A DNA stretch of 43,146 bases. It comes from a virus. The translations under genes were made by a program, and so were the position numbers. Positions 7,660 through 42,502 of the stretch are shown piece after piece; position 1 is the stretch's first letter, and each line of letters opens with the position of its first letter. The notes beneath the pieces were generated by a model. The model was given only the letters and a program-made list of their open reading frames with translations. It did not search any database and was not told the origin of the DNA. The stretch is from the IMG/VR virus record IMGVR_UViG_3300043786_000552, positions 1 to 43,146 of that record; one strand, 5' to 3'.

Positions 7660-7977
7660 ATGGCTTCTTATGTGCAAAAGGGCGACGTGCTTGATTACAC
7701 GCCCGCCTCTGCTGTCGCCGCTGGCGACGTTGTCGTGATCGGTTCGCTCGTGGGCGTCGCTCCTGTGGCGATTGCCGCCAATGCGATGGGCTCGCTGGCG
7801 ATCGACGGCGTCTGGTCGATGCCATGTGCCACGGGTGCCACCGGCGCCCAGGGCTCGGCGATCAGCTGGTACGCGGTTTCTGGCGTGGCTCATGCCTCGA
7901 CCGGCACCGCGGCTGGCAAGCTCGCCAAGGCCCGCGACGCTGGCGACACGACGGTGCATGTGGTGCTCAACAAGTAG
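7660..7977 (+). CDS. DUF2190-like capsid decoration protein
   Basis: 105 residues, beta-rich. The N-terminal pattern YVQKGDVLDYTPASAVAAGDVV and the later GVWSMPCATG are typical of the DUF2190 family. Those proteins follow the major capsid gene in many phages and are thought to be capsid-stabilising or decoration proteins on the head exterior. A GAGGTGAT Shine-Dalgarno precedes the ATG. The gene is isolated by a hairpin on each side, consistent with an expression level set separately from neighbours. Confidence 0.75.
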   Translation: MASYVQKGDVLDYTPASAVAAGDVVVIGSLVGVAPVAIAANAMGSLAIDGVWSMPCATGATGAQGSAISWYAVSGVAHASTGTAAGKLAKARDAGDTTVHVVLNK

Positions 7978-7998
7978 TGCCCTTCCCAAAACGCGCCC

Positions 7999-8038
7999 GC
8001 CCCGGCAGGTCTTAGCCTTTCGCCTGCCGGGGCCGGGC
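7999..8038 (+). terminator. Hairpin after the decoration gene
   Basis: GCCCCGGCAGG (7999-8009) and CCTGCCGGGGC (8023-8033) pair perfectly over 11 bases around a 13-base loop. Four further pairs (GCCC with GGGC) follow after a one-base bulge. It is a very stable stem without a following U-run, and may be a partial terminator. Confidence 0.5.
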
Positions 8039-8054: not shown

Positions 8055-8477
8055 ATGGCCGACCTCATCCGCACTGGCGCCGCCTGGCTCACGTCGCAAC
8101 TCAGAAGTGCGGCGGGCACGACCATTGCCTACGTGCGGGGAGCGAACACGGCCACGCTCACGGCCACGGTCGGCCGTAGCGTGTTTGAGAGCCAGGCCCA
8201 GAGCGGCGTGATCGAGCAATGGGAAGCCCGCGACTTCGTCATCACGACGGACGAGCTGCCCTACGGCGAGCCGCAGCGAGGCGACAAGATTTACGAGCAG
8301 TTCGGCACCGTGAGCAACGTCTACGAGGTGGTCACGCCTCGAGGCGTGCCGCTTTGGCATTACGCCGACGCCTTCCAGACTGCGGTGCGGGTTCACTGCA
8401 AGCGTATCGAGACAGATGTCGAATACCTCGTCACCGAGCAGGGTGACGAAATCGTCGTGCCCCTGCAGGTGAACTGA
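8055..8477 (+). CDS. Putative head-tail connector / head closure protein
   Basis: 140 residues, starting MADLIRTG; a GGAG lies six bases before this ATG, and an upstream ATG at 8043 is less likely. The sequence alternates predicted strands ([43 protein letters not shown]), suggesting a small beta-barrel. Head-closure proteins of siphoviruses are such barrels, and this slot after capsid and decoration genes suits that role. I cannot point to a diagnostic motif. The stop overlaps the next ATG (TGATG). Confidence 0.5.
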
Positions 8478-9556
8478 TGCCGATCCAGAAGCGCGTCAGT
8501 GACCTGCCAGCGGTGACCGGCGTTACCGGCGCCGACATGCTCATCATGTCGAGCAGCTCGGCCACGAAGCGCGTCACGGTCTCGCAGATCGGCAGCTACT
8601 TCCAGGCGGCCGGCGTCGCTGGCCCGACGGGTGCGGCTGGCGTTGGCAGCACGGGGCCGCGTGGCGAGGCTGGCGTCACCGGCGCTACTGGCCCGGCAGG
8701 CGTCGGTAGCACGGGGCCGCAGGGTGCGGCGTCTACAGTGCCCGGCCCGACAGGAGCGACGGGCCCGCAAGGCGAGTCGATTGTCGGCCCTACCGGCGCG
8801 GCGTCGACCGTGCCCGGCCCTACTGGCCCGGCAGGAGAAGTCGGCGCCACGGGACCGCAAGGCGACGCTGGAGCAGCGTCAACCGTTACAGGCCCGACAG
8901 GACCGGCTGGCGTTGGTAGCACAGGACCGCAGGGCCAAGCCGGCAGTACCGGCCCGACGGGCGCTCAGGGCGCCGCCGGGGTGGCTGGCGAAGTTGGCGC
9001 CACAGGCCCATCGGGCGAGGTAGGGGCCACGGGACCATCGGGCGAAGTCGGCGCGACCGGACCGTCAGGCGAACTTGGACCTACTGGCGCGCAAGGCATC
9101 CAGGGTGAGGCTGGCCCAACGGGAGCTACAGGCGGCGCTGGCGTGGCCGGCGAAGTCGGAGCTACTGGCCCGGCAGGTGCGGTCGGACCTTCTGGCCCAT
9201 CTGGCGAGGTGGGTGCCACTGGCCCGGCTGGACAAGTCGGCGCGACCGGAAGCACAGGACCGCAGGGCGTGGCCGGCGAGGTCGGACCTACTGGCGCGCA
9301 AGGCGAGGTCGGCGTGACCGGAGCTGCGTCAACAGTGCCGGGACCGACGGGCGCATCAGGCGAGGTCGGAGCCACCGGGCCTACGGGAAGCACGGGTGCC
9401 TCGGGAGAATCAATCGTCGGCCCGACTGGCACGCAGGGTGAGGTTGGCGCGACCGGCAGTGTCGGCGCCACCGGCCCGACAGGCGAATCAATTACCGGCC
9501 CAACCGGGCCCAGTTCAGGAATGAGCAGCGTCGCAGCAGCACTCGTTTTCTCATGA
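8477..9556 (+). CDS. Collagen-like fibre protein 1
   Basis: 359 residues. The first ~50 ([18 protein letters not shown], then [10 protein letters not shown]) form a short globular head like N-terminal attachment regions of phage fibres. From about residue 53 to 350 the chain is almost unbroken Gly-X-Y triplets, mostly [10 protein letters not shown] and G-E-V, ending in a short tail ([11 protein letters not shown]). Collagen-like triplets form trimeric rods in phage tail and head fibres. This is therefore a probable trimeric shaft with the head bound to the virion. Thr is frequent at Y, a position where bacterial collagens can be glycosylated; a glycan cassette lies downstream. Confidence 0.8.
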
Positions 9557-9563
9557 GGTAGAT

Positions 9564-9941
9564 ATGGCAGCCCCCAACATCGTCGGACCGACAACGATCA
9601 CCGCCAAGACGGCGGTGCTTTCCAGTGTCACAGGTGCCACCGGCACCGTGCTGCTGTCCAACGCCGCCAGCAGCGGCAAGGCGTTCCAGATCACGAGTCT
9701 CTACGTGGCAAACGTCGACGGCAGCTCGGCGGCCGACGTTACGATCAAGCTACACGCGGAAGACGATGGCGGCAGCACGGGGCGGGCGATCTGCTCGACG
9801 GTCAGCGTGCCAGCGGACGCGACGGTCATCGTGGTCGACAAAAACGCGCCCGTCTGGCTCGAGGAAGACCGCAGCATCGTGGTCACGCCGTCGGCGAGCA
9901 ATGACCTCGAGTTCGTCTGCAGCTACCTCGAGATTTCCTGA
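9564..9941 (+). CDS. Small beta-rich virion-associated protein
   Basis: 125 residues, beta-strand-rich, with the pattern VLLSNAASSGKAFQITSLYVANVDG followed by a Val/Thr-rich sandwich (ATVIVVDKNAPVWLEEDRSIVV). Small immunoglobulin-like or jelly-roll proteins of this type accompany phage fibres and neck proteins. No family is recognised. A GAGGT ribosome site lies just upstream of the ATG. The function as a structural component is inferred from position. Confidence 0.5.
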   Translation: MAAPNIVGPTTITAKTAVLSSVTGATGTVLLSNAASSGKAFQITSLYVANVDGSSAADVTIKLHAEDDGGSTGRAICSTVSVPADATVIVVDKNAPVWLEEDRSIVVTPSASNDLEFVCSYLEIS

Positions 9942-9966
9942 CCCCACATCACAACGGTAGCGCACC

Positions 9967-10755
9967 ATGTCTATCCGCTCTAACGGCAGCTACATCGGTT
10001 TTTCGCGGACGACCACGCTGTCGCAGGGTTCCGCGTCTGGCATCTGGGATCTGCGAACGGCCGAGCGGCGGCGCCGGGCGAATGCGTGGCCAGGAGATCC
10101 GGTAGACGAGTTTTTTTCGTCGGTCGCCATCCTCCTGCACATGGACGGCAGCGGCAGCACGTTCGTCGACTCAAGCGGAACGCCGAAAACAATTACTGCT
10201 GGCGGCAACGCTACGCAGTCAACTACCGAAAGTAAGTTTGGCGGAAAGTCCCTGTACGTGGATGGCAATGGAGATTCAATTTCCTTTGCTGACGTTGCGC
10301 TGGGCACGGATGCCTTTGCTATTGAAATGTGGTTCAAGTCAAACTCAAGCACGCAGTATGCCCAGTTGATTGGAAATGAGGTTAATGGCGGAGCCGACGG
10401 ATTCACCCTGCTCATCAACAACGACAGTAGCAGCGGCGGCCAGATAACCTTGTATCGGCAAGGCAATTTTGTGCTGTCTAGTTCATCCGGAGACTGGAGC
10501 GATGATGCTTGGCATCATTTAGCGTTAGTGCGATCCGGTTCCACCGTGACTCTATACATCGACGGAACGTCATACGGGTCGGCGACCGACGCTAATTCCT
10601 ACAGCGGAGGCGCCTACTACGTCGGCAGAAACAACGTGTTCTCCGGTCGCGATTTAGTTGCCTACATCGACGAGCTGCGAATCACCAAAGGCTCTGCCCG
10701 TGGCTACACCGGGGCAAGCATTACTGTCCCTACCGCCGCATTCCCAGATCAATGA
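9967..10755 (+). CDS. LamG-like (concanavalin A-fold) fibre protein
   Basis: 262 residues. The N-terminal ~50 residues contain GIWDLRTAERRRRANAWPG, a pattern common at the start of phage fibre and neck proteins and probably a virion anchor. Residues ~55-260 form a LamG-type jelly roll: LLHMDGSGSTFVDSSG, FGGKSLYVDGNGD, AIEMWFKS, DDAWHHLALVRSG, VTLYIDGTSYG and YIDELRITKG are all standard elements. Such domains bind carbohydrates or act as adhesins. From about 10130 on, base composition becomes visibly more AT-rich than neighbours, consistent with a swapped-in receptor-binding domain. Confidence 0.8.
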   Translation: MSIRSNGSYIGFSRTTTLSQGSASGIWDLRTAERRRRANAWPGDPVDEFFSSVAILLHMDGSGSTFVDSSGTPKTITAGGNATQSTTESKFGGKSLYVDGNGDSISFADVALGTDAFAIEMWFKSNSSTQYAQLIGNEVNGGADGFTLLINNDSSSGGQITLYRQGNFVLSSSSGDWSDDAWHHLALVRSGSTVTLYIDGTSYGSATDANSYSGGAYYVGRNNVFSGRDLVAYIDELRITKGSARGYTGASITVPTAAFPDQ

Positions 10756-10880
10756 ACAACGACGCCTTCGCCGCCGCGCTCGTCTTGGCCGCCATCCCGG
10801 TCGGCATGGCGAGCGGTGCGTTCGGCGTCTGGGTTTTCCGCTGGTCCGTGGTGTGGTTTCTCGCCCCCTACTCGCCCTGA
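10752..10880 (+). CDS. Small hydrophobic protein, 42 aa
   Basis: The ATG at 10752 overlaps the preceding TGA (ATGA) and opens a 42-codon frame to TGA at 10878. Residues about 5-38 are almost entirely hydrophobic (ALVLAAIPVGMASG, then FGVWVFRWSVVWFLAP), so one or two membrane helices are likely. It resembles no family I know. Confidence 0.4.
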   Translation: MNNDAFAAALVLAAIPVGMASGAFGVWVFRWSVVWFLAPYSP

Positions 10881-10908
10881 GTTCGCTACACAACAAACAT
10901 AGAGACCA

Positions 10909-12026
<1,118 letters not shown>

Positions 12027-12030
<4 letters not shown>

Positions 12031-12863
12031 GGTGCAAGGCAGGGATGCTGGGGGCGAATCGTGAAATTCCATGGGACCTGCGAACGGCATCATTTAAAAA
12101 AGATTTTTTCGTCGGCAGTCAGTTTGGCCTTCCACGCGCCGTAGCTTTTAAAAATGACGGCACGCGAATGTACGTCACGGGCGAGCAAGGGCCATCTGGC
12201 GCACAGTCTTGGGTCGGTCAGTATGACCTAAGCAGCGCATGGGACATATCCACAGCATCATTTGATGAGGGGTACACCGTTGCGCCAGACGCGGCATATC
12301 CAGTCGGTGTTTTGTTTTCCTCTGACGGAACGAAAATGTTTGTGCTGCACAATCCGCCTTTCGGTTCCACAAAAATCTACGAGTATTCTTTAAGCACTGC
12401 GTGGGACGTAACTTCTTCGTCGGTTGTGCGAAATGTTGCGTTTACTGCAGAAGCATTTTTCTTCCATAGCGACGGGCTTTCGTTGTATGCTGTCAACGAC
12501 ACGAGCTTTACTACTGTCTCGCAATATTCGATGAGCAGTGCGTATGACATAACGACGCTCTCGCTTGTAAATAGCCAAAGTTCCTTTGGGTTGTTAGCAG
12601 TTGATGGGCTGGCGCTTGATGACGATCGTAAAAGCATGTATTTGGCACGCAGCGGCTCTGTTCATCAGTATTCTTTAAGCACGTCAGGCGACGTGACGAC
12701 ATCCTTAGCGCAATACACGTTTTTGGCCAATGAGCCTGGCCAAACCGTAAACGCTGTAAACGGGATTGCCTGGAAGCCAGACGGAACAAAAATGTTTGGT
12801 GCATTTTTTGACTCAACTTTTCCGCCTGCGCAGCGTGAGATCAGGGAATTTTCTATTTCGTAG
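12027..12863 (+). CDS. Beta-propeller repeat adhesin-like protein
   Basis: 278 residues starting at an ATG that overlaps the previous stop (ATGA). Five repeats of about 45-55 residues are visible. Each runs roughly Y-x-L-S-x-A-W-D-[IV]-x-T-x-S, then a hydrophobic strand, then DGTKMFV or [52 protein letters not shown]. This suggests a five-bladed propeller. The DNA is distinctly more AT-rich than the flanking collagen genes, pointing to acquisition. It is probably a receptor-binding or tip protein; no catalytic motif is seen. Confidence 0.65.
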
Positions 12864-12871
12864 GCTAGTCC

Positions 12872-13396
12872 ATGCCACTCACCTTTCCGACCGGGCCATC
12901 GCTTAACGACGAAACCACCACGGGCGGCCGCACCTACCGCTGGAACGGCGAGGCGTGGGAGCTCGTCGGCAGCGGCATTGCAGGGCCTACCGGCCCTACG
13001 GGCGCAGCCTCAACGGTGGCTGGTCCGACAGGGCCGCTTGGCGCCGGCGTCGCCATCGTCGGCAGCGTGACGGGCGTGGGCGACCTGCCAACAGGCTACA
13101 CGGGCGCCGTTGGTGATTCATACATCGTGCAGACGGGCGGCAGCCTCTACGCATGGGATGGCACCGTTTGGAACGACGTTGGAAACATCGTCGGCCCGAC
13201 CGGAAACACCGGACCGCAGGGCGGCACTGGACCGACAGGGGCAGCGTCAACAGTGACGGGGCCGTCCGGAGCCGCCGGAGCGACCGGCCCCACGGGCTTT
13301 GGTGCCACAGGCCCCTCGGGTAGCGTTGGAGCAACTGGTCCAACCGGCCCGGCCGCAGGCGGCTTGCCGGGCGTTGTAGCGTTTCTCCTGTCGTGA
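12872..13396 (+). CDS. Collagen-like fibre protein 3
   Basis: 174 residues. The N-terminus has the fibre-associated pattern FPTGPSLNDETTTGGRTYRWNGEAWELVG. A triplet block, a globular insert (SVTGVGDLPTGYTGAVGDSYIVQTGGSLYAWDGTVWNDVG, split here only for description) and a final Gly-X-Y block follow. It ends GVVAFLLS, like the end of collagen-like protein 1 (AAALVFS). The WNG-AWELVG type unit recurs in many phage tail fibres. Its TGA overlaps the next GTG. Confidence 0.72.
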   Translation: MPLTFPTGPSLNDETTTGGRTYRWNGEAWELVGSGIAGPTGPTGAASTVAGPTGPLGAGVAIVGSVTGVGDLPTGYTGAVGDSYIVQTGGSLYAWDGTVWNDVGNIVGPTGNTGPQGGTGPTGAASTVTGPSGAAGATGPTGFGATGPSGSVGATGPTGPAAGGLPGVVAFLLS

Positions 13397-15013: not shown

Positions 15014-15639
15014 CTCTGGAGCAGCAGCTCGAGCAACGCGATGGAATCTGGTGGCCGGCCAGCGACCGCGGGTGCTGGGATTGGATGCACATGGCGAAGG
15101 AACTGCCGCAGCAGGTCATGCGGCACGTGTCGCAGTTTCGCAGCGTGGTGGTTGCCGGAGCCAATGCCGGGTTTTATATCGACCAATACGCATCGCGATT
15201 TTACTCGGTGATCGCCATCGAGCCGGAGCCGCTGAACTTTCTGGCGTTGGTGCGAAACTGCCAGCAGCCAAACGTCATCAAGCTCCAAGCGGCACTTGGC
15301 TGCGACCGCGAATGCGTCGCAATGGATGTTGACCACGCAGGCAATTGCGGCGGCTACTTTTGCCAGCCCGGCGGACTGGTGCCGACGTTGCGAATCGACG
15401 ATCTGGCAGGTTCGGTCGACTGCCTGCACCTGGACGTAGAGGGCTATGAGCTCAAGGCGCTGCAGGGGGCCGAGCAGACGATTGCCGCTCATCGACCCGC
15501 GATTGTGTGCGAGAACATCGGCAACGAGTCACGGTACGGCCACTCGCGCGAAGCGGTTACGCAATGGCTGACGGCACGAGGCTATGTCGTGGCTGAGCGG
15601 TTGCCGCACGACACGATCTTTACCTGGGGGGCAGCGTAA
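15010..15639 (+). CDS. FkbM family methyltransferase
   Basis: 209 residues. VVVAGANAGFYID (about 46-58) is the SAM-binding loop, EPEP the acidic end of strand 2, and LHLDVEGYELKALQGAEQTI the FkbM hallmark (D-V-E-G-x-E). FkbM enzymes methylate hydroxyls of sugars or polyketides and are frequent in surface-glycan clusters. ATG overlaps the previous TGA (ATGA). Together with the upstream methyltransferase and the downstream glycosyltransferase it suggests an O-methylated glycan product. Confidence 0.82.
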   Translation: MTLEQQLEQRDGIWWPASDRGCWDWMHMAKELPQQVMRHVSQFRSVVVAGANAGFYIDQYASRFYSVIAIEPEPLNFLALVRNCQQPNVIKLQAALGCDRECVAMDVDHAGNCGGYFCQPGGLVPTLRIDDLAGSVDCLHLDVEGYELKALQGAEQTIAAHRPAIVCENIGNESRYGHSREAVTQWLTARGYVVAERLPHDTIFTWGAA

Positions 15640-16694
15640 TGAAGATCGCCGTCTACGCTCTGGCGAAGAACGAAGCCAAGCACGCGGCCGACTGGGGCAA
15701 AAGCTGCGCCGATGCCGACGTGCGGATCGTCACCGACACCGGGAGCACCGACGGCACACAGGGCATTCTCACGCAGCTGGGCGTCACGGTCGTGAATGGC
15801 TACGTCTGCCCGTGGCGGTGGGATGACGCCCATAACCTCTCGATGAACCACGTGCCACCCGATGTCGATGTCTGCGTGCGGCTTGACCTTGACGAGCGGC
15901 TTCAGCCCGGCTGGCGGGAAGCCATCGAAAAGGTGTGGGCACCCGAGGTCAACAACCTCCGCTACAAGTACGTCTGGTCCTTTAAGCCCGACGGCTCCCA
16001 GGGCCTCGTCTTCCTGAGCGACCGGGTCCACGCCCGGCAGGGCTTCCGCTGGACGGCGGCCACGCATGAGGGGCTGGTCTGCTGGACGGGCGAGAAGCGG
16101 CAGCGGGTGGCCGACGGCCTCGTCATTCACCATCACCGCGACCAAGGCAAGAAGCACACGACCGACCTGCGGCTGCTCGAGGTGGCGGTCCGCGAGGCGC
16201 CGCACGACGCCCGCACGAAGTGGTACTACGCCCGAGAGCTCGACTATGCCGGGAAGCCCGAGGCGGCAGCAGAGTTTGCCGCCTACCTGCGGATGAGCGG
16301 CGGGCAGGTCACCGAGCGAGCCTACGCGATGCGTCGCCTCTACGCGATGACGGGCGAGGAGATTCACCTCCACCGGGCGGCGGCCGAGGCTGAGAACGAG
16401 CCGGACGCTTGGGAGCGGCTGGCACTGGCTCGCTACCACCAGAAGAACTGGGTCGAGTGTCTGGCCTTCGCTGAGAGCGCTATCGCCTGTACCGAAGTTG
16501 GTACACACGCCACTGACCCCGACGCCATCGGGCGAGCGTATGACCTCGCCAGCGTGGCTGCTTGGGAGCTCGACAATCGGCCACAGGCCCTGCTCTACGG
16601 TGAGCAGGCTATGGAAAGATTGTCCGCAGACGAGCGGATTCGGGCGAACGTCGCCGCGATGCGTCAGATCCTCGCACACACGCAAGCAGCCTAA
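15639..16694 (+). CDS. Family 2 glycosyltransferase with TPR-like C-terminus
   Basis: 351 residues. The GT-A nucleotide-sugar fold is shown by VTDTGSTDGTQ (31-41), VRLDLDERLQPGW (the DxD-type metal site at 83-85) and the acceptor-region segment FRWTAATHEGLVC. From about residue 200 to the end, helical repeats (WYYARELDYAGKPEAAAEFAAYL, then WERLALARYHQKNWVECLAFAESAI) look like tetratricopeptide repeats, a common tail in this subgroup. It probably transfers sugar to a protein or lipid acceptor in the cytoplasm. TAATG coupling to both neighbours. Confidence 0.85.
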   Translation: MKIAVYALAKNEAKHAADWGKSCADADVRIVTDTGSTDGTQGILTQLGVTVVNGYVCPWRWDDAHNLSMNHVPPDVDVCVRLDLDERLQPGWREAIEKVWAPEVNNLRYKYVWSFKPDGSQGLVFLSDRVHARQGFRWTAATHEGLVCWTGEKRQRVADGLVIHHHRDQGKKHTTDLRLLEVAVREAPHDARTKWYYARELDYAGKPEAAAEFAAYLRMSGGQVTERAYAMRRLYAMTGEEIHLHRAAAEAENEPDAWERLALARYHQKNWVECLAFAESAIACTEVGTHATDPDAIGRAYDLASVAAWELDNRPQALLYGEQAMERLSADERIRANVAAMRQILAHTQAA

Positions 16695-36284: not shown

Positions 36285-36521
36285 ATGCTTTGCCTCTCAC
36301 GGAAGGAGTCTGAGTCGCTGGTCCTGCCAGGTCGCGGCATCGCCGCGGTCAAGGATTGGCTGGACGACCAGATCGAGATCGTAGTGATTGCGATCGAGGG
36401 CGACCGCGTGAAGCTCGGCATCGACTGCCCCGACGAGGTCGATGTTTACCGCCATGAGGTGTGGCGGTCCGTGAAGCGCAAGGAGAAGGAGGAAACACGC
36501 GATGGGAATCTCGATTCGTAA
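36285..36521 (+). CDS. csrA: CsrA-family RNA-binding regulator
   Basis: 78 residues. The N-terminal strand MLCLSRKESESLVL and the later VVIAIEGDRVKLGIDCPDEVDVYRHEVW match CsrA/RsmA (E. coli MLILTRRVGETLMI... and [21 protein letters not shown]), including Leu4, Arg6 and the Arg56 position that contact RNA. An insertion of roughly ten residues (GRGIAAVKDWLDDQ) lengthens the second strand-loop. CsrA dimers bind GGA in mRNA leaders to block or alter translation. Here it sits in the early operon and could act on phage or host mRNAs. It overlaps the downstream ATPase gene by 20 bases. Confidence 0.85.
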   Translation: MLCLSRKESESLVLPGRGIAAVKDWLDDQIEIVVIAIEGDRVKLGIDCPDEVDVYRHEVWRSVKRKEKEETRDGNLDS

Positions 36522-37419
36522 GGCCAAGCGATCGGCCACCAAGCTGCGGCTGTTGCTGACCAGCCCGAGCGGCGGCGGCAAGACCTATTCCGGGCTGCTG
36601 CTGGCCAAGGGCTTGGGCGGCAGGACGGTGGTCATCGACACCGAGGAGGGCAGCAGCGATCTCTATGACCAGCTGCACGACTTCGACGTGGTCGATCTCA
36701 AGCCGCCGTTCACGCCCGAGCGGTACATCGAGGCGATACACGCCTGCGAAGAGGCCGGCTATGACGTAATCGTCATCGACAGCGTGACGCACTGCTGGAG
36801 CGGCAAGGGCGGCTGCCTCGAGCTCGTCGACGACATCGCCAAGGCGAAGTTTCGCGGCAACACGTGGTCGGCTTTCTCGGAAATCACCCCCCGGTGGCGT
36901 GCGTTTGTCGACGCCATCCTTCGATCGTCGGCCCACGTCATCTGCACCGGCCGCAGCAAGACCGAGACCGCCCAGGTCGACGACGGCGGCCGCAAGAAGG
37001 TGACGAAGCTGGGCATGAAGCTCGAAGCCAGAGACGGCCTGGAATACGAGTTCACATGCGTGCTTGACATCATCCACGACGGCCACTATGCGACCGTCAG
37101 CAAGGACCGCACCGGCCTGTTTACCGGCGACCCGAAGCCGATCACCGAGGCGACCGGCAAGCAGCTGGCCGAATGGCTGGCTGGCGGCAAGGCGGTGCCG
37201 GCCGCGGCGTCGCCGCTGCTGCAGAAGATCCGCGACACGATCGCGGCGGCCACGACCGTCAAGAAGCTGGGGGCGATCACTGACCGCATCGACCAGCTGC
37301 TCAGCGAGGGCACGATCGAGACCGACCAGTGGTCGAAGCTGACCGACGAGGTCAACGCCCGCCACGACAAGATCGAGCCGGTTGACGCCGGCCAGGAGGC
37401 CGCCAATGCCGTGGCATGA
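36502..37419 (+). CDS. RecA-like recombination ATPase (Sak4/AAA_24-like)
   Basis: 305 residues. Walker A SPSGGGKTYS (21-30, Lys27), an acidic DTEEGSSDLYD segment after strand 2 and Walker B DVIVIDSVTH (about 90-99) place it among phage RecA-like P-loop ATPases (AAA_24, Sak4). Such proteins anneal or load recombination proteins onto single-stranded DNA and pair with an SSB, which follows two genes later. The C-terminal ~90 residues are an accessory helical tail (KKLGAITDRIDQLLSEG). Probably cytoplasmic, in early replication/recombination. Confidence 0.78.
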   Translation: MGISIRKAKRSATKLRLLLTSPSGGGKTYSGLLLAKGLGGRTVVIDTEEGSSDLYDQLHDFDVVDLKPPFTPERYIEAIHACEEAGYDVIVIDSVTHCWSGKGGCLELVDDIAKAKFRGNTWSAFSEITPRWRAFVDAILRSSAHVICTGRSKTETAQVDDGGRKKVTKLGMKLEARDGLEYEFTCVLDIIHDGHYATVSKDRTGLFTGDPKPITEATGKQLAEWLAGGKAVPAAASPLLQKIRDTIAAATTVKKLGAITDRIDQLLSEGTIETDQWSKLTDEVNARHDKIEPVDAGQEAANAVA

Positions 37420-38906: not shown

Positions 38907-39223
38907 GCGACTACTACCCACAGGCCGAGGCCGTGCTGCCGCTGTTTATGCCCCCCCCGGCACAGCGTCACAGCGAGACAAGCCGCGCCGCTGCAGCGTC
39001 GTTGACGCCGGCCAAGCTCACGGGCGACCGGCTGCGGATCTATCGCTACCTACGGACGCGGCCCGATGGTGCCACGGACGAGGAGATCGCTGCGGCGCTG
39101 GCGATGGCCGAGAACACAGAACGCCCCCGGCGGGTTGAGTTGCAGAGGGCCGGAATGATTCGCCTGGTCGGGACCAGGGCGACGAAGAGCGGGCGGAAGG
39201 CGAATGTTTGGAGGGTGGCGTGA
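38903..39223 (+). CDS. Winged-helix protein
   Basis: 106 residues. LTGDRLRIYRYLRTRPDGATDEEIAAAL and RPRRVELQRAGMIRLVGTRATKSGRKANVWRVA form a winged helix of the type found in phage replication and regulatory proteins. A run of eight C encodes part of the MPPPAQR segment (38951-38958). TGATG overlap with the next gene. Likely DNA binding. Confidence 0.6.
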   Translation: MSDYYPQAEAVLPLFMPPPAQRHSETSRAAAASLTPAKLTGDRLRIYRYLRTRPDGATDEEIAAALAMAENTERPRRVELQRAGMIRLVGTRATKSGRKANVWRVA

Positions 39224-39822
39224 TGGGCAAGAAAAAAAGTGCTTTATCAGTTGATGATCGCGTTGCGCTTGCGCTTCCGCGATGCACGCTCACGACAACG
39301 TCCCTGACGTTTGACGACTCGGCCACCGAGAAGGACTGGCGCGAGGCTATGGGCCGCCTTGCCAGCGTGGCCGGAGCATCGCAGTGGTGGATTGGCGACG
39401 GTATGAATCACGGCGAGGCGAAGTATGGCGACATCGCCGAGACGGCGGCCGAGCTTGGAAAAAGCTACTCGGCAGTTTCTAAGGCAAAGAGCATAGCGTC
39501 GCAGTTTGAACTTTGCCGCCGGCGGCAAAGTTTGCCCTGGAGTTTTCACGCCGCAGTTGCATCGCTTGAAGAGGACGACCAGGACGAACTCCTCGACTGG
39601 GCCGAGACGCCAGGCGAAGACGGCGAGCTGCCGACACGCAAGCAACTTCGCGAGAAGGTCCGCGAGCGTAAGCCGCCGAAGGAAAAGCCATTCGACGGCG
39701 AGGCGGCTGGCAATCGGCTACGCGATTGGCTCCGCACTGAACTTGATAGGTGGCCTGAATCGCAACGTCGCGAGGCGGCACATTGGATTCGTCAGATCAT
39801 CGAAAAGGAGTACGGACTATGA
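39223..39822 (+). CDS. HTH protein of the GHKL block
   Basis: 199 residues. EAKYGDIAETAAELGKSYSAVSKAKSIASQFELC contains an HTH-like stretch; the C-terminus is basic/charged (REKVRERKPPKEKPFDGE, then ELDRWPESQRREAAHWIRQIIEKEYG). The general plan resembles ParB/KorB-like or plasmid regulators, but I do not assign a family. It starts a lower-GC stretch continuing through the next two genes and is coupled to the GHKL ATPase (ATGA overlap). Confidence 0.5.
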   Translation: MGKKKSALSVDDRVALALPRCTLTTTSLTFDDSATEKDWREAMGRLASVAGASQWWIGDGMNHGEAKYGDIAETAAELGKSYSAVSKAKSIASQFELCRRRQSLPWSFHAAVASLEEDDQDELLDWAETPGEDGELPTRKQLREKVRERKPPKEKPFDGEAAGNRLRDWLRTELDRWPESQRREAAHWIRQIIEKEYGL

Positions 39823-41234
39823 ATCTCGGAAACATTCCGCCCAGCATCCTGCGTTCGATCAACGCCCAACCTATGCAGTGGAAGGTTGCGCTCGGCGAGG
39901 CTTGTGACAACTCGTTTGACAGCGGAGCAAACTGGGTTCGCATCGTATTCCACGGCGAGAAGCAGGTTGAGATCGTGGACGACGGTAACGGCTGCAACAA
40001 CATTGAGGCGATGCTGACAATCGGCAACCACTACCGCCAGGCCAACACTCGCCTCGGTCGGTTTGGCGTCGGCCTAAAGGAACTTGCCTGCTGGCTGTGG
40101 GGCGAGTTGGTTATCCAGACGATCAACGGCGGCGTCATGCGAAAGGCTGCTGTGGACTGGGAGCGTCTCGCAAGGGCGACTGACTGGAACGTGCCAGACC
40201 CTACTGCAAGTCCAGTCGAAGACCCGCAGCAGCGTGGCACGAAGCTGCTATTTCGCAAGACGGTTCGCAACCGGCCGGGAGATTTGGCCGTATTGGCGGA
40301 CGAGCTTGGCTATCTGTTCGCGCCTGCTCTGTGGACTGGAAAGCAGATTGCCATTGAGTCAGGCAAAAAGAAGCTGACGGTTGCGGCATGGAAACTTCCA
40401 GAATTTGAGGGCGACATCGTCCGCGAGTCGTTCCACGTCAACGGCAAGCGAGTTGACCTTACGGCAGGTGTGGTCGCGAGCGATCACGTCAACATCCGCA
40501 AGGGCTTTACGTTCATTCACGAGTTTCGGGTTTTGCTTAACAGCGCTCTGGGGTCGTGCGGGAGGAGCGTCAGCCGGATTTGCGGGACTGTCGTTCTTGG
40601 CCCCGAGTGGAAGCTTGGAAAGAACAAGGACGCCATACAGGACAGCGACGACCAGATGAAGGCACTGGAGCAAGCAATTTACGCCAAGTGCGAAGAGGTG
40701 CTTCGTAGAGGCGAGCGGCAGTCCACCATGCTGCGCAATTCTGCATTTGAGGGCGCTGTAACGACTGCCCTTAGGGGCCTTCTCTCTGCCGCCGTCGATG
40801 ACGACGCGGACCGCAAGGCCAAAAGGAAGGCACCAGAGAACGAGACTGGTCGAGTTGAGCCGACAGGCAAAGGTCGGCGGCACAAGCGTGCCAAGAATCA
40901 GCAGCCAGGACAGACGTTTAAGGGAAAGGCGAATCTCGCAGGTATTCGGTTTGAGTGGGAGTCTCGTTTAGACGGCATGATCGGCAGGGCCGACCTGCCA
41001 GGAAACGTTGTCTACCTTAACGACAACCACAGGCGTCTTGTTCACCACCGTGAAAACGAAAACGTAGACGCGATAGCCGACCTCTGCTGCGTGATCTTGA
41101 GCGAAGAAGTCATCCGCAACAGGGAGTCGTCAAAGCTTCCGATCGTTCGTGACTTCACTGACATTACATCGGCTATTTCTGAAGTTCTGCGACGGCAGCA
41201 AGAGACTGACGACAGGGTTGCTGTTGCAGGCTAA
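39819..41234 (+). CDS. GHKL (Hsp90/MutL/MORC-type) ATPase
   Basis: 471 residues; start MNLGNIPP with AAAGGAG upstream. The Bergerat fold is complete: ALGEACDNSFDSGA (Glu27, Asp30, Asn31), IVDDGNGCNN (DxGxG, 54-58) and GRFGVGLKE (80-88). A middle domain of about 200 residues follows, then a basic linker (KRKAPENETGRVEPTGKGRRHKR). A C-terminal domain with FEWESRLDGMIGRADLPGNVVYLNDNHRRLV completes it. Family members clamp DNA or act as ATP-gated dimers in mismatch repair, chromatin compaction (MORC) or immunity. It is lower in GC than its surroundings and in the early region, so probably a moron with a defence, anti-defence or replication role. ATPase fold certain, role open. Confidence 0.8.
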   Translation: MNLGNIPPSILRSINAQPMQWKVALGEACDNSFDSGANWVRIVFHGEKQVEIVDDGNGCNNIEAMLTIGNHYRQANTRLGRFGVGLKELACWLWGELVIQTINGGVMRKAAVDWERLARATDWNVPDPTASPVEDPQQRGTKLLFRKTVRNRPGDLAVLADELGYLFAPALWTGKQIAIESGKKKLTVAAWKLPEFEGDIVRESFHVNGKRVDLTAGVVASDHVNIRKGFTFIHEFRVLLNSALGSCGRSVSRICGTVVLGPEWKLGKNKDAIQDSDDQMKALEQAIYAKCEEVLRRGERQSTMLRNSAFEGAVTTALRGLLSAAVDDDADRKAKRKAPENETGRVEPTGKGRRHKRAKNQQPGQTFKGKANLAGIRFEWESRLDGMIGRADLPGNVVYLNDNHRRLVHHRENENVDAIADLCCVILSEEVIRNRESSKLPIVRDFTDITSAISEVLRRQQETDDRVAVAG

Positions 41235-41247
41235 AGGAGCATCGATC

Positions 41248-41667
41248 ATGCGCAGACGTGCTGGGAGCGAAAGCCTTTTTTGTCATTGGTTTGGGTTAGT
41301 CGCCGGGCCTCAGATTTATCGAAAGTTTTGCAGCGCATTCCCAAAGCAAGGAAATGGGTGGGCACACGCAAACGAAAACCTTCGTCAAAATGTAATGCAC
41401 TGGACCGGGTTTCGAGATAGACGTAGTGAGACCTGCTCAGCAGGCATGGACGGGCCGCCTCCTGGGCTTTGGGTAAATGCCCAAGAACACACCACGGCAA
41501 TTTTGCACATTGGATTTTTGCGAGAGTTTCCTGTTTTGGTTTTACCAAAGGCAGAGCAAGTCCCGGTTCGCGTGGCTCGATCCAAATTTCAGAGAGAGAT
41601 AGATCGGACAACACCAATCCCGATAGACGCCCTTGCAGCAAAAGTAGGAGGCCGCGATGGCCGGTGA
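41248..41667 (+). CDS. Hypothetical protein of the GHKL block
   Basis: 139 residues; AAAGGAG twelve bases before the ATG. Its DNA is lower in GC than neighbours. It contains aromatic stretches (FCHWFGLVAGPQIYRKFCSAFPKQGNGWAHANENLRQNVMHWTGF) and a C-terminal segment RVARSKFQREIDRTT. No family is recognised. It directly follows the GHKL ATPase and overlaps the replication gene by 11 bases, so it may be its partner. Confidence 0.5.
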   Translation: MRRRAGSESLFCHWFGLVAGPQIYRKFCSAFPKQGNGWAHANENLRQNVMHWTGFRDRRSETCSAGMDGPPPGLWVNAQEHTTAILHIGFLREFPVLVLPKAEQVPVRVARSKFQREIDRTTPIPIDALAAKVGGRDGR

Positions 41668-42502
41668 ATGGATCGCCTACGACCTGGCCCTTCCCGAGAA
41701 GCCCGAGGTGCAGGAGCTCATCGACATCACGGGCGAGCCCGTCGAGGTCGTGATCTACCGAATGCTGCAGCTGTGGGGCTGGGCCAGCCTCCACTGCGCC
41801 GACGGTCGGGCCAAAATGACCCCCCCCAGGCTCTGCCGGGTCTGCGGGGGCACGATCGATTTCTGGCAGGCTGTCGAGTCTGTCGGGTGGCTGAAGTTCG
41901 ACGCGCAGGATGGGACCGTTGCTGTCTCTGGCTGGGATCGCCGGTTCTCTCAATCTGCCAAGGAGCGAGCTGCCGCCCGCAATCGAGCCGCAGAAAGCCG
42001 GGAAAAACACCCGGAACCTGAGGCGCACGCACCCGTGCGCAAAAAGCGCACGCACCCGTGCGCTTCCGGCGCACCAGAGGAGAGGAGAGGAGATAGAGAA
42101 GAAGATCCTCCTCCTCCGCGAGATGCTGCGCAGTTCGAAGCTCTGCGGGCGGCCTGGAACAAGGGCCACGGGCGGCCCTGGAAGCCGCACACGCCGCCCA
42201 AGGGCCGGGAAGGCGTGGCAGACGACCCGCAGTGGCTCAAGGCGGCCCTGGAGGCGATCCCGAGGCTTGCTGGCTGCCGCTACTTCGAGACGCCCGTGAC
42301 GCTGCCGCAGTTCATGGGCGACGGGTTCGTGACAAACGTGCTGGGTGGCCAGTACGACAACGCCAAGGCCACCAAGGGCGGCCGGCCGGCGACACGGGGC
42401 ATCGACGAGCCGGCGCCGCCGCGAGAATGGAAGGGCGACGACCTGGCGAGGTTTGAGGCGACACGAGCCAAGGCGTTGGCCGCGTTACAGGAGGCGTCGT
42501 GA
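41657..42502 (+). CDS. Replication-initiator-like protein
   Basis: 281 residues. WIAYDLALPEKPEVQELIDITGEPVEVVIYRMLQLWGWASLH opens a winged-helix N-terminal domain as in phage replisome organisers. FWQAVESVGWLKFDAQDGTVAVSGWDRRF continues it. A long basic, low-complexity linker (about 100-165) and a C-terminal helical domain with WNKGHGRPWKPH and PQWLKAALEAIPRLAGCRYFETP follow, the latter DnaD/O-like. AGGAGG precedes the ATG. An eight-C tract lies within the N-terminal domain (41820-41827). It probably binds the origin and loads host helicase. Confidence 0.65.
   Translation: MAGEWIAYDLALPEKPEVQELIDITGEPVEVVIYRMLQLWGWASLHCADGRAKMTPPRLCRVCGGTIDFWQAVESVGWLKFDAQDGTVAVSGWDRRFSQSAKERAAARNRAAESREKHPEPEAHAPVRKKRTHPCASGAPEERRGDREEDPPPPRDAAQFEALRAAWNKGHGRPWKPHTPPKGREGVADDPQWLKAALEAIPRLAGCRYFETPVTLPQFMGDGFVTNVLGGQYDNAKATKGGRPATRGIDEPAPPREWKGDDLARFEATRAKALAALQEAS

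Follow-up and report, generated by a model that had tools for sequence, protein, structure and literature searches.

Introduction

ParABS systems unite a sequence-specific helix-turn-helix (HTH) adaptor, a palindromic site and a nucleoside triphosphatase (NTPase) gene beside the adaptor gene, and parts of a similar kind occur at the locus analysed here, a pair of adjacent genes in a 43,146-bp virus record of IMG/VR (IMGVR_UViG_3300043786_000552; this whole stretch of DNA is called the window). The upstream gene encodes a predicted DNA-binding adaptor, P0001, and the downstream gene a GHKL ATPase, P0002; many adaptors of related pairs are ParB-like. The two systems differ in their NTPases: ParA is of the Walker type, whereas here the NTPase has the GHKL fold and is encoded downstream of the adaptor. 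The N-terminal cytidine triphosphatase (CTPase) domain of ParB is absent from the window adaptor and present in part of its relatives' adaptors, and a role in partition is putative here. The parS site inside spo0J of Bacillus subtilis is a precedent for a site lying within an adaptor gene. A text search of a 2025 survey of ParB folds (PMC12704722) found no occurrence of HSP90 or MORC.

MORC and paraMORC proteins (PMC2292703) share with P0002 a GHKL and transducer module followed by a long helix. MORC2 is a DNA clamp that compacts DNA with ATP (PMC12216690), C. elegans MORC-1 entraps and compacts DNA, and MORCs silence genes (PMC8277788). In P0002, unlike these proteins, no CW, nuclease, TIR or HEPN domain was found, and its partner in phages is a DNA-binding adaptor. 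Prokaryotic MORCs belong to restriction-modification or nuclease operons; the pair instead stands among replication and recombination genes.

Three further systems invite comparison. LmbU of Streptomyces lincolnensis, to which P0001 is homologous over nearly its whole length, has as its reported binding site the palindrome CGCCGGCG (PMC6510168, PMC10763038), the core of a palindrome within the P0001 gene, and represses its own gene (PMC6510168). P0001 differs from LmbU in scoring below the family cut-off and in its phage context, and no GHKL motif was found within 1.5 kb of genuine LmbU genes at the two actinobacterial loci checked. In phage T4, rIIA and rIIB likewise pair a gene for a GHKL ATPase with one for a proposed transcription factor (PMC7824862), but their order is reversed and rIIA has 725 residues. 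We rejected orthology of P0002 to rIIA: no more than 86 columns align in the profile match, all in the GHKL core (probability 62%), and rIIA folds rank far below the best match of the ATPase in BFVD. MzaB of the MZA system shares the GHKL core, but P0002 matches that core alone with 20.9 bits against an equivalog cut-off of 850, and neither Z1 nor any other Mza gene stands beside the pair.

The open literature yielded no description of the adaptor-ATPase system, most subscription papers and bioRxiv preprints lying outside the search; GHKL, ParB and phage together led to one unrelated paper, and the combination of HATPase, ParB, bacteriophage and operon to none. The parts are known and their assembly appears undescribed, in agreement with the original prediction, made from the sequence of the window, of an undescribed multi-gene system centred on a GHKL ATPase.

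Results

Successive alignment-based scans of IMG/VR gathered 27 representatives of the P0002 family (L095, L096 and L102-L105 were excluded as other GHKL proteins). In 24 of the 27, the gene directly upstream of the ATPase encodes a proven or likely DNA-binding protein, mostly with a 4-nt ATGA overlap, and this pairing, carried by many unrelated phages, extends across GHKL proteins down to about 21-25% identity, including gp95-gp96 of Mycobacterium phage Bobby, whose gp96 belongs to the family. The adaptor heads fall into ParB-like (13), DUF3102-like (5), LmbU-like (3), AKD-type (2) and short HTH-like (1) classes; phrog_4715, which PHROG names 'ParB-like partition protein', is matched by 11 of 21 scanned partners. 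The tree of GHKL proteins shows six or more changes of head class and joins the LmbU-headed clade to the ParB-headed L007 and L008 (support 99/96).

Inside the adaptor gene of the window lies a perfect palindrome of the structure AACTTTGC-CGCCGGCG-GCAAAGTT, with its core at 39517-39524. It is the strongest dyad in the 43 kb and the sole one with a score of at least 8.5. Its centre equals the published LmbU site; by our own estimate, the chance that a random palindrome at this guanine-cytosine (GC) content would have this centre is about 1%. At the same codons the nearest relative (L001; 90% identity in the GHKL protein, 83% in the adaptor) carries TTAAG-CGCCGGCG-CTTAA, and another near relative (L006; 72% and 79%) carries GTTA-CGCCGGCG-TAAC, so the core occupies the palindrome centre in all three phages. 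Among them, four base pairs have changed on both sides of the dyad, no change is one-sided, and the signal is lost once the arms are slid. The residues encoded by the palindrome are C-RRR-Q in the window, K-RRR-L in L001 and L-RRR-N in L006: the protein sequence here follows the symmetry of the DNA.

The palindrome is single-copy in each of the three contigs tested (the window and those of L083 and L005), where no further copies were found. Of the occurrences of CGCCGGCG in the window, only that at 39517-39524 has extended arms, with 8 extra pairs compared with 0-1 in the other copies. A genome-wide array of this motif was considered and rejected, as there is no enrichment beyond composition.

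Other adaptor genes contain unrelated palindromes at class-specific homologous loops. In all five genes of the DUF3102 class the best dyad falls at a homologous codon just before a conserved LP motif, and the palindromes of L083, L084 and L090 share one loop. Taken together, 13 of 24 adaptor genes score at least 8, compared with 5.7% of control windows (p 4e-6). Codon shuffling gave a joint Fisher p of 7e-13 for the 24 genes and of 3e-7 for 15 genes, one per clade, and p 0.98 for the adjacent GHKL genes. The anatomy of pair and palindrome is well supported. In terms of ParABS, a candidate site is present and co-varies among relatives, and its binding by the adaptor is predicted. The GHKL gene of L012 contains two more strong dyads, at 6705-6724 and 6461-6479 (CGGATATGCCGGCATATCCG and TAATACAGCGGCTGTATTA), which are possible extra sites.

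P0001 matches the NCBIfam LmbU family over residues 26-192 (E 8.7e-19) with 68.1 bits against the NF038070 cut-off of 125 bits; on this sequence evidence it is homologous to LmbU and not a family member by the curated rule. Direct BLASTP of P0001 with Bobby gp95 gave no match, nor did a fold search with the adaptor model, which was too weak. The HTH core of the protein evolves faster than its C-terminal part. Relative to L001, the codons of the core divide into 10 identical, 18 synonymous and 21 non-synonymous, against 61, 21 and 1 in codons 117-199; the last 40 codons show eight synonymous changes and no non-synonymous ones. A low-confidence model places helices in this tail at residues 159-174 and 179-197.

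With a profile of the LmbU-class tail, the tail of the ParB-headed partner of L007 was the first non-self match among 4,683 open reading frames (ORFs; E 0.005), a likeness that BLASTP also detects (E 2e-5). Judged from these matches, the LmbU-like class and one ParB-like class, that of L007, demonstrably have the tail in common, so that a head has been exchanged on a kept tail. The NCBIfam LmbU model itself spans the adaptor into most of its tail. Since the C-terminal domain of LmbU is without known function (PMC6510168), LmbU proteins may also dock a partner through it.

P0002 matches HATPase_c_3 (PF13589) above the cut-off (E 4e-16). In an 11-row alignment N31, the D54xGxG motif (D54, G56 and G58), the GxGVGxK motif (G83-G85 and K87) and the transducer lysine K270 are invariant and E27 is nearly so; P0002 thus has the Bergerat-fold motifs and the transducer lysine of HATPase_c_3-type GHKL ATPases. 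Because the ATP-site residues are conserved, it is probably an active ATPase. The AlphaFold2 model (m34babb2979a6; 11 sequences, mean predicted local distance difference test score, pLDDT, 77.7) has, after the GHKL domain and the transducer, a helix 59 residues long, then a disordered linker and, last, a small C-terminal domain. Its top Foldseek matches in the PDB are MORC4, MORC3 and SMCHD1, with MORC2 close behind, so that MORC-type proteins are its nearest structures, at moderate TM-scores (template modelling scores). In a profile comparison, the GHKL and transducer regions of the ATPase family match paraMORC-type proteins of cellular origin (E 7e-27). That the ATPase would have clamp-forming relatives had been anticipated from the sequence, and its best fold matches are indeed the MORC ATPases.

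In BFVD the best structural match is a full-length one (E 8e-26) to a protein of 494 residues, the length of Bobby gp96, and the next is 12 orders of magnitude weaker. A first scan of 84,980 cellular genomes found nothing; a second returned 55 loci with weak core matches, and the 11 inspected were paraMORC/MzaB-like or MutL. Both scans pre-filter on short peptides, which leaves absence unproven; within that reach, the family was not found in these genomes beyond generic paraMORC/MutL cores. P0002 is a member of a distinct GHKL ATPase family found in phages. One distant locus, L004 (3286-8500), comes from a human-gut record labelled bacteriophage and holds GHKL, Z1-domain-like and nuclease-like genes beside chromosomal-looking genes; this cluster resembles an MZA-type defence cluster, and L004 may be non-phage.

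The layout of the locus is summarised in Table 1. The HTH protein, the complete GHKL ATPase and a 139-residue ORF, which the original prediction had joined in one block, are all present and coupled or closely spaced: the ATPase start codon sits within the stop of the adaptor gene (ATGA), and the third ORF starts 13 nt past the GHKL stop and overlaps the next gene (41657) by 11 nt. The block is flanked by recombination and single-stranded DNA-annealing genes (36502-37419, Sak4-like) and by a replication initiator gene. Its GC content is clearly lower than that of the window (0.566 against 0.630), as described before, and marks the lowest 2.4-kb stretch, bar the 2445-bp interval starting at 39201. 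Since the pair has low GC in L001 and L006 too, this is a lasting property of the pair and does not point to a recent acquisition. A consensus scan, which is weak and had no known host to rely on, found no sigma-70-like promoters inside the block, and Rfam and transfer RNA searches returned no matches.

Table 1. Coordinates in the window of the pair, its parts and the genes downstream
Feature	Position	Strand	Description
Adaptor gene P0001	39223..39822	+	199 aa; LmbU/ParB-type HTH DNA-binding protein
Adaptor HTH core	39424..39570	+	Codons 68-116, evolving fast; 21 of the 49 are non-synonymous relative to L001
24-bp perfect palindrome AACTTTGCCGCCGGCGGCAAAGTT	39509..39532		Inside the adaptor gene; predicted adaptor binding/nucleation site
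Adaptor C-terminal tail	39694..39819	+	Residues 158-199; two predicted helices, near-invariant; proposed ATPase dock
MORC-like GHKL ATPase gene P0002	39819..41234	+	471 aa; PF13589
ATPase long helix	40647..40823	+	Residues 277-335; then disordered linker and C-terminal domain, about residues 372-462 (AlphaFold2)
139-aa ORFan	41248..41667	+	Variable passenger gene, outside the module
Replication initiator gene	41657..42502	+	phrog_2509, E 3.9e-19; directly 3' of the pair in relatives

The third gene does not belong to the unit. In L001 it is missing, the flanks join cleanly and the initiator follows immediately after the ATPase; in L006 its place is taken by an unrelated 77-aa ORF. Searches of Pfam, PHROGs, PADLOC and NCBIfam, and of viral contigs, phages and plasmids, found no homologue of its product, and the gene has a GC content of 0.519 (0.45 at third codon positions). 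Bobby gp97 was considered as a counterpart and rejected for want of similarity. Because the gene is missing in one close relative, replaced in the other and without a homologue, the three-gene system originally proposed does not hold: the conserved unit is the two-gene pair with one DNA site, and the 139-aa ORFan is a local passenger, in this phage only. Neither the palindrome nor the conserved tail of the adaptor had figured in the original prediction.

Across the family the pair lies near initiators, Sak4 and RecT annealing proteins, exonucleases, helicases, DnaB, primase and Holliday resolvases, and an initiator directly follows it in the window, L001, L006 and L009. A replication or recombination setting, read before from the window alone as one of replication, recurs in most loci, and these neighbours support a role in replication or recombination. 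Methyltransferases are near some loci and are not conserved; the pair has no conserved nuclease, helicase or methylase partner. In L006 (500-2953), and not in the window, helicase-like and DNA methyltransferase-like genes lie directly upstream of the winged-HTH gene of the pair.

The initiator genes themselves contain repeats. In the window, two tandem 18-bp inverted repeats GCGCACGCACCCGTGCGC, 23 nt apart, occupy the middle of the gene (42023-42068), and inverted repeats stand at the matching place in L006 (5868-5922, of different sequence) and L001 (5319-5357). L009 has iterons every 32-34 nt in its initiator gene (3403-3512), and L084 has similar tandem repeats (7939-8000). These arrangements look like a lambda-O-type origin inside the initiator gene.

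The window also encodes terminase, portal, head protease and tape measure proteins, which mark it as a tailed phage. Other genes of these phages include CsrA homologues in the window (36285-36521), L010 (7934-8116) and L007 (8200-8463; PF02599, E 4e-17 to 2e-12). The window also contains collagen-like Gly-X-Y repeats (8477-13350; PF01391, E 1e-30 in 8477-9556), with DNA repeat families out to 13350, and a beta-1,4-glycosyltransferase moron gene (15639-16694; phrog_13126, E 6e-82).

Discussion

The arrangement suggests a mechanism that we hold to be evenly poised between right and wrong, in which the adaptor nucleates at the palindrome that its gene contains and there loads a MORC-like ATP clamp, by which the phage DNA is organised as it replicates. 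A dimer of the adaptor, with its ParB/LmbU-type HTH, would bind the single palindrome as ParB binds parS, and its two-helix C-terminal tail would recruit the ATPase encoded by the neighbouring gene. The GHKL ATPase would then close as an ATP-dependent dimeric clamp around DNA and, starting from the palindrome, compact, loop or organise the phage genome during replication or recombination.

Several observations weigh against this proposal or narrow it. No significant palindrome is present in about a third of the adaptor genes (L008, L010, L080, L101, L087, L091 and Bobby), and in the DUF3102 class two of the five dyads, those of L082 and L094, are weak when taken singly. The bare core is not enriched in the window (16 copies against 12.9 expected from 7-mer composition). 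L074, L078 and L014 are GHKL members with no obvious DNA-binding neighbour, the gene upstream of the L078 ATPase encoding a GNAT acetyltransferase, and the AKD-type partners (L080 and L101) and that of L009 have no Pfam hit, so that their DNA-binding role is conjectural. Tail homology reaches significance for one pairing only, the LmbU class with L007; L008, L009 and L010 show weaker signs of it, and elsewhere there is a likeness of form alone. Finally, the resemblance to MORC is at the level of the fold, with TM-scores of about 0.44-0.49 to the query, and gyrase and HSP90 folds score nearly as well.

Among other explanations the main rival is silencing or superinfection immunity, because plasmid incompatibility, or specificity of phage immunity, would make head and site diverge together. 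The adaptor would then act as a repressor: bound to its operator, it would bring in the MORC-like ATPase and so turn off early genes of its own phage or of a competitor, with the palindrome as operator or roadblock. A rapidly diverging HTH, a conserved tail and a co-changing site all agree with this, as do the autorepression by LmbU (PMC6510168), the silencing activity of MORCs and the position of the Bobby pair about 3 kb from an immunity repressor gene. We nevertheless think it rather unlikely: the site lies about 290 bp into the gene and not at a promoter, there is one per genome in the three contigs tested, and most loci have a replication or recombination setting and not that of an immunity region. 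The neighbourhood could also be read as that of an accessory to replication initiation, the pair opening, remodelling or licensing an origin together with the downstream initiator. The four loci with an initiator directly downstream, the inverted repeats or iterons within initiator genes and the tally of replication proteins near the pair speak for this, but many family members do not adjoin an initiator, a physical link between pair and initiator is putative, and the iteron sequences are unlike those of the adaptor sites; we consider it distinctly unlikely.

Still less fits the remaining alternatives. Anti-phage defence or counter-defence, with a paraMORC-type ATPase and a sensor protein comparable to MZA, seems quite improbable. 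The paraMORC profile match, weak matches to MzaB and TmtA and the distant L004 cluster point that way; no conserved effector or nuclease goes with the pair, however, the adaptors and the sites inside their genes suggest that the pair acts on the DNA of the phage itself, and the setting is a replication region. The suggestion that the block might be a mobile anti-phage module finds no direct support either, given that PADLOC matches are weak and confined to the generic GHKL core, that no nuclease, helicase or methylase accompanies the pair consistently and that the cellular genomes scanned offered only generic cores. The palindrome might instead act as RNA, forming a hairpin that controls how the downstream ATPase is translated, since compensatory changes are expected of RNA stems too and the palindrome stands upstream of a coupled gene. 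This we regard as very improbable, as the symmetry runs through the centre and leaves no loop in the zero-spacer cases, no G-U pairs occur among the paired positions, and the core is the published DNA site of LmbU.

Taking the family as a whole, the pair with its palindrome may tentatively be seen as a three-component DNA-organising system composed of a modular ParB-like adaptor, a parS-like site within the adaptor gene and, where other systems have ParA or SMC, a clamp of the MORC type; in it, head and site would diverge together on a fixed, ATPase-docking tail.

The locus shows MORC-like ATPases of phages in a concrete molecular setting and indicates how a clamp of the GHKL type could be directed to a single DNA site. 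The loading of eukaryotic MORCs is poorly understood, and here adaptor, site and ATPase form one small genetic unit with natural variants of specificity. The adaptor gene provides an example of a protein-coding segment whose amino acids follow the symmetry of the DNA, and it links the LmbU family of regulators, found with antibiotic clusters, to the ParB-like adaptors of phages. If the proposed mechanism is true, phages would have in this pair their own version of chromatin compaction by MORC, and adaptor-site-NTPase cassettes would gain a further type.

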